From Rhizobiaceae bacterium (lineage in GTDB: Bacteria; Pseudomonadota; Alphaproteobacteria; Rhizobiales; Rhizobiaceae): DNA of 38,554 bases. Below the pieces are notes generated by a model. The model saw only the letters and a program-made list of their open reading frames with translations. It was not told the DNA's origin and searched no databases. Positions 9,789-12,919 of this stretch are shown one piece after another. The translations under genes were made by a program, and so were the position numbers. Where the stretch lies: positions 1-38,554 of the forward strand of contig JAHDEP010000002.1 of assembly GCA_020628775.1 (NCBI GenBank), written 5' to 3'. Each line of letters opens with the position of its first letter. Position 1 is the first letter of the stretch.

Positions 9789-10319
9789 ATGCCGGTTTAT
9801 AGTTTAGACGGGGTTGAACCAAATTTGCCTGAAAAAGGAAGCTATTGGATAGCAGATAATGCTCAGGTCATGGGTAAAGTCACGCTATCGACAGGTGTTG
9901 GCATATGGTTTGGCGCTGTTTTACGTGGCGATAATGAAATGATTTCCATTGGCAAGCGCACCAATGTTCAGGAAAACTGCACATTGCATACCGATATGGG
10001 CTTTCCGCTAGATGTCGGCGAGGGCTGTACGATTGGGCATAATGCTATTTTACACGGATGTCAGTTGGGGGATAATACGCTCATTGGCATGGGCGCGACG
10101 GTTTTAAACGGCGCTAAAATCGGCAAAAATTGCATTGTTGGTGCCGGGGCATTGATCACGGAAAATAAGGTGATACCAGATAATTCACTGGTTGTGGGTT
10201 CACCGGGCAAAGTTATACGCCAAATTGACGATAAGACAGAGGCGGCGTTGCGTGAGGGCGCGCAAAACTATGTTGATAATGCTATGAGGTTTGCAAAAGG
10301 GCTGAAGCGGATCGATTAA
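9789..10319 (+). CDS. Gamma-class carbonic anhydrase family protein (left-handed beta-helix hexapeptide repeats)
   Basis: GVGIWFGAVLRGDNEMISIGKRTNVQENCTLHTD, CTIGHNAILHGC, GMGATVLNGAKIG. Strong SD AGGAGGT upstream. Confidence 0.92.
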   Translation: MPVYSLDGVEPNLPEKGSYWIADNAQVMGKVTLSTGVGIWFGAVLRGDNEMISIGKRTNVQENCTLHTDMGFPLDVGEGCTIGHNAILHGCQLGDNTLIGMGATVLNGAKIGKNCIVGAGALITENKVIPDNSLVVGSPGKVIRQIDDKTEAALREGAQNYVDNAMRFAKGLKRID

Positions 10320-10338
10320 TCGATCAAGAGATAAAATG

Positions 10339-10371
10339 TGCTGGTCCGCATGGGACAGACGCGGACCAGCA
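10339..10371. repeat. Perfect 11-bp inverted repeat (hairpin 1 in convergent intergenic region)
   Basis: TGCTGGTCCGC - ATGGGACAGAC - GCGGACCAGCA. Confidence 0.9.
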
Positions 10372-10375
10372 ATAA

Positions 10376-10418
10376 CCTGAGCCTTTATAGGGGGGACGAG
10401 GATAAGGTCAGGCTCAGG
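10376..10418. repeat. Perfect 9-bp inverted repeat (hairpin 2 in convergent intergenic region)
   Basis: CCTGAGCCT ... AGGCTCAGG, with GGGGACGA in the loop. Confidence 0.9.
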
Positions 10419-10486
10419 AAACTGAATTATCCAATATCTTTTTCTGTCCGAGTTCGTCCCCGATACTCAATCGACAGATTTATTAC

Positions 10487-11095
10487 TTAGTTGGTTGTAC
10501 CAACAGCTCCGCTATTGCCATTGCCAAGTTTCATCCATGCACCGGCATGTTCCGAAGACTGGCGTTTGATGAAGCGATAACCTGTTTCATGCCACAGTCG
10601 TACATCGTTACGCAGATTATCGAGTACATAGTCACCGTAATCTGTGCGAACTGTCAGTACGGCATGTCCAGAGCCGTCTGGTTGGAGTACAACAGTGATC
10701 AGAAGGTCAGCTGGTGAAAACCCAGCTTTCATCAGACTTGCGCGCTTGAGCAGCACATAATCTTCACAGTCACCCACTGTTCGTGGATATGACCATACTT
10801 CTTCAACACCGTGAATTTGCATATCTGTCAAAGGTTTGATCTTGCGATTAACAGCTGTATTGATCTTAAGCATCTTGTCCCATGCTTTTCTCGTGAGCTG
10901 CATTGGTCCTTGGTCCCGACCGATGACGCCACACTCATTTGGGTTTGCCTTACAAAATTCGTAATGCCCAATAGGTGGATTAGTTTGACTGACTGGACTT
11001 AGAAAATCATGCGCCGCATGAGCGTTACTCATAGAAGCAATTCCAAGTCCTAATAATAGTGCACCTGTTTTTACTGTGCTATTGATGTGAACCAT
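10487..11095 (-). CDS. Bacterial transglutaminase-like cysteine peptidase (BTLCP)
   Basis: Signal peptide, then VWSYPRTVGDCEDYVLLKRASLMKAGF and GHAVLTVRTDYGDYVLDNL (Cys/His/Asp triad region of the BTLCP family). Confidence 0.88.
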   Translation of the reverse strand: MVHINSTVKTGALLLGLGIASMSNAHAAHDFLSPVSQTNPPIGHYEFCKANPNECGVIGRDQGPMQLTRKAWDKMLKINTAVNRKIKPLTDMQIHGVEEVWSYPRTVGDCEDYVLLKRASLMKAGFSPADLLITVVLQPDGSGHAVLTVRTDYGDYVLDNLRNDVRLWHETGYRFIKRQSSEHAGAWMKLGNGNSGAVGTTN

Positions 11096-11554
11096 TTTCG
11101 TTCTCCCCGTTATGGGAAGGAATATGGCAGCACGCTTTTTACATTGGCCAAATTTTGGCGCTAAAATTCGATGCTAAATATCTGAAAAATAACGATAAAT
11201 TTTAATTGAGTTCAATTCAAATAAGGTTCAATTTTACATCAAATCGAATTCATATTTTCAGAAAAATTAGCTAAATTTGTAGCTACTTTGCCGCAACACT
11301 ATATTTCAAAGGCGGTTGGGCGGGTTGGAATTTTGTTGATTTTTTGAAGAAGTGTGAGGTCCAGCAAGCAATGAACCAAACATGGCAAGTTGATCAAAGC
11401 GCATAAGGATGCGAAAAAGCAGGAAAATAGGGCGCGAAAAAAAATTGAAAAAAGTGAAATTATTTTTCAAATTTGGCGAATTAAATAGATTTGGACCGCA
11501 GAAACTGCGTTTGGAAACTCAATTTATAACGAATTTTAGCGCAATTAGACTGAC

Positions 11555-12160
11555 TTAAAGTCTGTTTTCCAGCTCTTCGATTGGCTGAATATTGAGAAAT
11601 TCCATTGAAATACCCGTCTCAAAGTGACGTAATACGCGACCCTGCATGGAGCCGAGCCATATTAATGAGCCAATTTCAGGCCTAACATCGATCTCAAAGG
11701 CGGCACCTGATACGGATAGATCAATAATACGGACAGGATAAGTTCGTCCATCTTCAAGTCTGATCTCAGAATTCATCTTACGCGGCGTTGTACGCTCGTG
11801 ACGACGATCTTCTTCCATGCCAAGTTCGTGCTTATTGGCAAGCCAGGTCAATTGAGCGGCTAATTTATTCTGCTTTCGAGGTGTTGCATTAATGCTAACT
11901 TCAAACCCAGCTTTCGTCACGCTAATCACGTGACCTTCAAGACGGCCGATTTGTTCAATATATGCGATAATTCTTTCGCCATGTTCGGGCAGGTGGGCTG
12001 CTTCTACGAACGCCACAGCAGGAGACATCTTGTTGATGAAGCACTTTTGCTCAGTATAGTCTTCGCGCATCATGCGCCCTTGAAGCTCTACACTTACACT
12101 GTAAAAAGTGTTTGCTTCATCGTTTTCAGTGCCAATATCTCTTCGTGCTGCCGATAGCAT
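11555..12160 (-). CDS. PilZ domain-containing protein (probably two PilZ-like domains)
   Basis: C-terminal RRHER (RxxxR) and DLSVSGAAF (D/NxSxxG) c-di-GMP motifs. The N-terminal half has a PilZ-like beta pattern but no clear motif. Confidence 0.8.
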   Translation of the reverse strand: MLSAARRDIGTENDEANTFYSVSVELQGRMMREDYTEQKCFINKMSPAVAFVEAAHLPEHGERIIAYIEQIGRLEGHVISVTKAGFEVSINATPRKQNKLAAQLTWLANKHELGMEEDRRHERTTPRKMNSEIRLEDGRTYPVRIIDLSVSGAAFEIDVRPEIGSLIWLGSMQGRVLRHFETGISMEFLNIQPIEELENRL

Positions 12161-12265: not shown

Positions 12266-12919
12266 TTAGTTTTTCAAACCACCATCGATGACAAAAAGAT
12301 GGCCAACTCGTTTGGCATCCTCATCGTTACTGCTGGTTGTGTTTAAAGTTTCAGAACGGCCCAAAGCCTTAAAATCTACAGGTATTGTATCTTTATCGAT
12401 ATGTCGGATCGCTGTGAGCGACATTCCGATAATATGCTTTTTGTTGAGACTAAATTCACTACCCATTTGAGCAAGGGAACCGATCACACGATCAAACTTT
12501 CCGTTTTCGCTCACAAGAGGGAGCAACAACATCTCAAGTTTATTGACGGTGCCCATTGTTGAAAGGCCATCAGCGCAAACAACAAATGGCATTTGTTCAG
12601 ATGCGCATTGCGCTACAATCGTGCTAGGTTTGCGCTCTACACCGTTGAGCCACAGGCCGCTGAATGATTTGCCGCGCAATTCATCACCAAACATAGCGCA
12701 GATGTCACCACCTGCAAGTTTTAGCGATGCAATGTCGCCTGCTAATTCTAGCATAAATATTGAAGGTAGAATGTTGCCAATATAAGCAGGTTCAAACTCG
12801 TGACGAGAAGGGGCGGGGTCATCGCCTCTTAGTTCATTCCAATACTGGAATAGCTCTCTGCTGGTTTGATGTCTCATGACAATAATACTCAATACACTTA
12901 CATGTCCTTGTAAGATCAT
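12266..12919 (-). CDS. PAS domain-containing protein (PAS_5-like)
   Basis: ELFQYWNELRGDDPAPSRHEFEPAYIGNILPSIFMLEL, GDICAMFGDELRGKSFSGLW, typical of alphaproteobacterial PAS_5 proteins. Confidence 0.8.
   Translation of the reverse strand: MILQGHVSVLSIIVMRHQTSRELFQYWNELRGDDPAPSRHEFEPAYIGNILPSIFMLELAGDIASLKLAGGDICAMFGDELRGKSFSGLWLNGVERKPSTIVAQCASEQMPFVVCADGLSTMGTVNKLEMLLLPLVSENGKFDRVIGSLAQMGSEFSLNKKHIIGMSLTAIRHIDKDTIPVDFKALGRSETLNTTSSNDEDAKRVGHLFVIDGGLKN

Follow-up and report, generated by a model that had tools for sequence, protein, structure and literature searches.

A structured RNA element at the 3' end of BTLCP mRNAs across Hyphomicrobiales, with loops that match the Shine-Dalgarno site of their own transcript

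The window, i.e. the whole stretch of DNA analysed here (38,554 nucleotides from a Rhizobiaceae bacterium), contains two convergent genes. The one on the plus strand stops at position 10319 and encodes a hexapeptide-repeat protein, which we take to be gamma-carbonic-anhydrase-like, while the one on the minus strand stops at 10487 and encodes a bacterial transglutaminase-like cysteine proteinase (BTLCP). A PilZ-domain protein (11555-12160) and a PAS_5 protein (12266-12919) are encoded upstream of the latter, both on the minus strand. Between the two stop codons lies a region that is unusually well folded on both strands when compared with dinucleotide shuffles (z -4.86 for the minus strand, -3.43 for the plus strand). 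The features discussed below are listed in Table 1.

Table 1. Features of the BTLCP transcript in the window.
Feature	Position	Strand	Description and basis
BTLCP gene, mRNA bearing the element	10487..11095	-	202 aa; ORF; Pfam PF06035 Peptidase_C93, E 1.1e-65
Leader hairpin UUCCUUCCC-AUAAC-GGGGAGAA	11101..11122	-	Fold of own and 76 related leaders; pair statistics, 47 leaders
HP0, third hairpin, UCUGUC/GACAGA	10443..10478	-	Fold in 3 species; both-sided stem changes in G001
HA, 9-bp hairpin, 25-nt C-rich loop GACCUUAUCCUCGUCCCCCCUAUAA (10385-10409)	10376..10418	-	Homologous hairpin covaries across the order
HB, 13-bp terminator hairpin, loop CUGUCCC (10352-10358)	10339..10371	-	Terminator scan; homologous helix 98.7% paired, 76 members
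U-rich tail CAUUUUAUCU, 3' of HB	10329..10338	-	Terminator scan; longer U-runs in many relatives

In the initial annotation this region was read on the plus strand, as two hairpins whose loops are complementary to consecutive segments downstream. The elements of that description are present in the sequence: a first hairpin with 11-bp arms (10339-10349 and 10361-10371) and the loop GGACAGA (10353-10359), a second one with 9-bp arms (10376-10384 and 10410-10418) and the loop GGGGACGA (10392-10399), and the respective complements TCTGTCC (10443-10449) and TCGTCCCC (10454-10461), both exact in the window species. By simple counting, each of the two loop complements (7 and 8 nt long, within 64 nt downstream) would arise by chance with a probability of roughly 2%, which makes pure chance an unlikely source of both. 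These inverted repeats fold on both strands, which together with the exact complementarities would fit a plus-strand pseudoknot or a bidirectional 3' end shared by the convergent genes. However, the complementary segments are altered in sister species, TCTGTCC being replaced by TCTGTCT in G003 and by TCTGCCA in G001, and TCGTCCCC by TTGTCCCC in G003, which is not the behaviour of conserved plus-strand loop partners; crossing pseudoknots are thus not supported as the central feature. A covariance model of related elements (R1, described below and built without the window copy), when run over 2.2 kb around the element, gave 17.8 bits (E 0.0025) on the minus strand vs 6.5 bits on the plus strand. 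In addition, the gene found downstream varies among relatives and the element tracks BTLCP whichever gene that is. We therefore consider the plus-strand and bidirectional readings highly improbable.

Read on the minus strand, the element forms the structured 3' UTR of the BTLCP mRNA. Hairpin HA, with the stem CCUGAGCCU/AGGCUCAGG, begins 68 nt 3' of the BTLCP stop, and is followed by HB, with the stem UGCUGGUCCGCGU/AUGCGGACCAGCA. The terminator scan picked HB on this strand only, where the GC-rich 13-bp hairpin is followed by the U-rich tail CAUUUUAUCU, as in intrinsic terminators. The reported lack of a U-tract does not hold here, since the minus strand has CAUUUUAU after HB and many relatives have proper U-runs. 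The two supposed downstream segments both fall within a third, genus-level hairpin, HP0, located between BTLCP and HA, with stem arms at 10443-10448 and 10473-10478 (plus coordinates): TCTGTCC corresponds to a stem arm and TCGTCCCC to the loop, which on the minus strand contains GGGGACGA (10454-10461). In G001 the HP0 stem is altered on both sides (UCUGCC/GGCAGA), which supports the hairpin and weakens the plus-strand loop pairing. The block of about 90 nt that contains HA and HB differs by one base in two congeneric species (G001 and G003), while its flanks have diverged. The element is present as a single copy in its own genome, according to the genome-wide search proposed in the initial annotation, and the plasmid and phage collections gave no match to it, so that a mobile or multi-copy element was rejected. 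A 22-nt match to HB in contig 57 of G001 covers only half a hairpin and was taken as chance.

BTLCP loci were gathered from 81 genomes, plus 80 loci from named GTDB genomes. The same two-hairpin layout, with other stem sequences, was found 3' of most members of one BTLCP subfamily; in Rhizobium johnstonii 3841, for instance, it reads GGCCCGGUC-AGUCCCCGCAUCCCGUCCCC-GACCGGUGCC, followed by GAGCCGUUCCCG-CUGUCC-CGGGAACGGCUC. A poor MAFFT alignment of 13 elements, from which no useful structure emerged, was replaced by A3, an alignment of 28 elements on which R1 was built. In a search blind to gene positions, R1 had matches, in most cases a single one per genome, in 47 of 81 genomes belonging to the order, and the 30 best matches were all located 1-174 nt 3' of a BTLCP stop, on the same strand. 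No strong free-standing match appeared, the element being found almost only behind BTLCP. A class-wide sample gave one matching genome out of 190 (L255, G255:C1:550761-550830; 35.4 bits, E 0.003), a match that may be chance. Two variations in layout were also observed: two tandem copies of the element 3' of one BTLCP gene (L178, G051:C15:164964-165138), and what appears to be a repetition, inside the element, of the HB hairpin with a GUCCCC loop (L182, G011:C97:54663-54780).

The stems of the family covary. In A3, which was aligned by sequence alone, there were 53 double-sided cells against 15.8 after shuffling, with slid controls far lower, and among 76 members, in an alignment fitted to the structure, 226 double-sided changes were counted against 57 ± 10 after shuffling, involving 19 of the 21 pairs. 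The absence of compensatory changes in relatives had been named in the initial annotation as grounds for discarding the element; this check did not refute the element, and the earlier suggestion of a structured RNA or sRNA-like 3' end withstands the covariation check. The window copy is a divergent member, absent from the matches of the genome search with R1 and found in the 2.2-kb search, and we join it to the family because position, architecture and loop motifs agree. No Rfam family matched the window or 34 related loci; the best weak match, to a microRNA model, was a chance one (15.9 bits vs a threshold of 90), and with no score above the gathering threshold a known Rfam family was rejected. 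Literature searches in the main text of open-access papers returned no description of the element, though an uncharacterised transcript from this locus may already have been listed elsewhere. HA-HB is an uncatalogued RNA family across Hyphomicrobiales (rhizobia and relatives), fixed in its position behind the genes of one BTLCP subfamily. We hold the structure, strand, location and conservation of the element to be established with very little doubt, and the initial interpretation as a whole to be partly supported.

The loops behave differently from the stems. Of 77 distinct HA loops, 72 contain GUCC (12 ± 3 after shuffling), as do 45 of 56 HB loops (6.7 ± 2.3 after shuffling). That the loops are constant while the stems vary points to a partner for the loops. 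A candidate is found at the other end of the same mRNA. The leaders of the subfamily are conserved, roughly as UGUCAUUGUCnCCUCAUAACGGGGAGACA-AUG, and a small hairpin encloses the GGGGA Shine-Dalgarno (SD) site in nearly every one of 77 leaders, that of the window (11104-11108) included; pair statistics on 47 leaders gave 81% of cells paired, vs at most 60% in slid controls. The HA loop, through GUCCCC and CCCCGU, is complementary to the SD site of its own mRNA, with a mean longest Watson-Crick run of 6.52 against 4.87 ± 0.10 for shuffled loops. Set beside 306 neighbouring gene starts of these genomes, BTLCP leaders reach 6.52 contiguous pairs and the neighbours 3.99 (Wilcoxon p ~1e-13; gene starts picked by simple rules), and at least 6 pairs with the own HA loop are formed by 82% of BTLCP leaders vs 9% of neighbours. 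Own SD-loop pairings also beat permuted ones (0/5000), with the kinship among genomes left in; as the genomes are related, neither the permutation nor the neighbour test counts independent events. When the R. tropici-like clade was compared with the R. etli-like one, the signs of a joint change of SD and loop were mixed, and we do not count them in favour of the pairing.

Complementarity between a motif in the 3' UTR and the SD site of its own mRNA is found across the order, and is weak in the genus of the window, where the match comprises 5 Watson-Crick pairs (7 if one G-U is allowed) and is not exceptional. In the window, and also in G002, the rank of the match among gene starts was not distinctive. 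Three Agrobacterium loci (L133-L135) have lost HA, and their short 3' UTR retains, just before the terminator, GUCUCCCC, an exact complement over 8-9 nt of their own SD sequence GGGGAGAC. In some cases an SD-hairpin leader of this kind precedes a gene that lacks the 3' element. A second BTLCP subfamily (L055-L058, L061-L064, L147, L148 and others) carries a CtrA-box-like TTAA-N7-TTAA upstream and lacks both the SD-hairpin leader and the 3' element; the latter was present in 0 of 21 BTLCP genes with such promoters and in 73 of the remaining 89.

Two explanations dispense with this pairing. HB could be just a terminator and HA a stabilising structure upstream of it, as the quality of HB as an intrinsic terminator and the strong selection on the stems would allow, but plain terminators do not need loops that are kept while stems change, and the loops have a match in the conserved leader; we regard this explanation as unlikely. 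The GUCCC loops could also be protein-binding sites, their resemblance to the leader being secondary. The repetition of a short loop motif in HA and HB would suit such sites; however, we identified no protein known to bind loops of this kind and the loops match their own leader far better than controls do, which leaves this explanation very unlikely.

Based on these data, the loops (GUCCCC, CCCCGU) would pair with the SD site of BTLCP itself, be it in cis, on a single mRNA, or once the 3' end has been released as a small RNA. This pairing would keep BTLCP translation low, in a negative feedback loop. The BTLCP gene probably regulates itself, and we see about an even chance that it does so through pairing of the 3' UTR element, or of an sRNA derived from it, with the SD site, to the repression of its own mRNA. 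The 3' UTR could instead be the source of a trans-acting sRNA with many purine-rich ribosome-binding sites as targets, the BTLCP leader being one among several. Since C-rich loops match many purine-rich starts, trans targets are possible, and by duplex energy there are dozens of starts in G035 and G002 that do as well as BTLCP or better; HB has a terminator tail as sRNAs do, and sRNAs with C-rich loops, such as PmaR (PMC6234868), are known in the same family. Against this stand the near-exclusive location of the element behind BTLCP, the rank of the BTLCP leader by contiguous pairs, which in G035 is within the top few of 293 starts and overall is far above neighbours, and the single occurrence in the own genome of the extended SD motif AACGGGGAGA-N3-8-ATG, at BTLCP. 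We take a trans-acting sRNA of this kind to be possible but somewhat unlikely.

Returning to pairing with the own SD site, HP0 may add a further component in the genus of the window. The loop pairing of the initial annotation survives there in part and in another form, as a plausible loop-loop contact of HP0 and HA between GGGGACGA and UCGUCCCC, and is not general in the family: the complementarity extends over 8 nt in two species of the genus and 6 in the third, and over 6 nt in Hoeflea-like genomes, and a general HP0-HA kissing loop was rejected, as it did not exceed permutation in 52 loci (p 0.9) and was limited to these two groups. The SD-like GGGGACGA loop of HP0 can pair with HA in this genus, and may buffer it. 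More tentatively, this could be a new RNA family in which, across the order, the leader hairpin that closes the SD is coupled with a matching hairpin loop of the 3' UTR. A single transcript would then carry both halves of its translational switch, and the HP0 of the genus would act as an internal, SD-mimicking decoy for the loop.

Several described systems offer points of comparison. In the icaR mRNA of Staphylococcus aureus, a UCCCC motif in the 3' UTR is complementary to the SD of that very transcript (PMC3868564). The BTLCP transcript shares with it the C-rich motif and its complementarity; however, gene and organism are unrelated, the BTLCP pairing is a prediction, and the motif is placed in hairpin loops beside the terminator, combined with a leader that has its own SD-closing hairpin and conserved order-wide. 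OppZ and CarZ of Vibrio cholerae are autoregulatory sRNAs derived from 3' UTRs (PMC7398697), and here too a 3' end, located on the mRNA and ending in its own terminator (HB), is proposed to feed back on its own transcript, with the difference that for the BTLCP element a released RNA that acts in trans is a proposal. By analogy, our best reading is that the element would work like icaR or like OppZ/CarZ, which is not a claim of membership in either.

Among alphaproteobacterial sRNAs, PmaR, GspR, EcpR1 and AbcR (PMC6234868, PMC5928217, PMC4414408) resemble the element in their compact stem-loops with pairing sites in the loops, that of PmaR being C-rich. EcpR1 was rejected as its identity because it belongs to another locus, divK-pleD/rpmG, and so was the Sinorhizobium GspR, located at SMc03844/SMc03845, SMc03845 being a thioredoxin-fold gene and not a BTLCP (PMC9561847). 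PmaR, compared by description only, has been reported only from Agrobacterium and one Rhizobium strain, and the HA-less Agrobacterium BTLCP loci (L133-L135) argue against identity with it. With respect to the protein, HvyA of Caulobacter is a BTLCP protein that blocks capsule formation and is translationally controlled by an unidentified factor (PMC4241560); we found in that paper no passage on UTRs or sRNAs. The likeness lies in the translational control of a BTLCP protein, but Caulobacter belongs to a different order and the class-wide sample gave only one weak R1 match.

The regulatory 3' UTRs of bacteria have been described, to our knowledge, mostly in single species. The element on BTLCP mRNAs extends over Hyphomicrobiales, is not in Rfam and has as its computed partner the ribosome-binding site of its own mRNA, which makes a direct reporter test possible. 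Besides this, an RNA element on BTLCP mRNAs is a concrete candidate, in rhizobia, for the mechanism of translational control of the HvyA type (PMC4241560).
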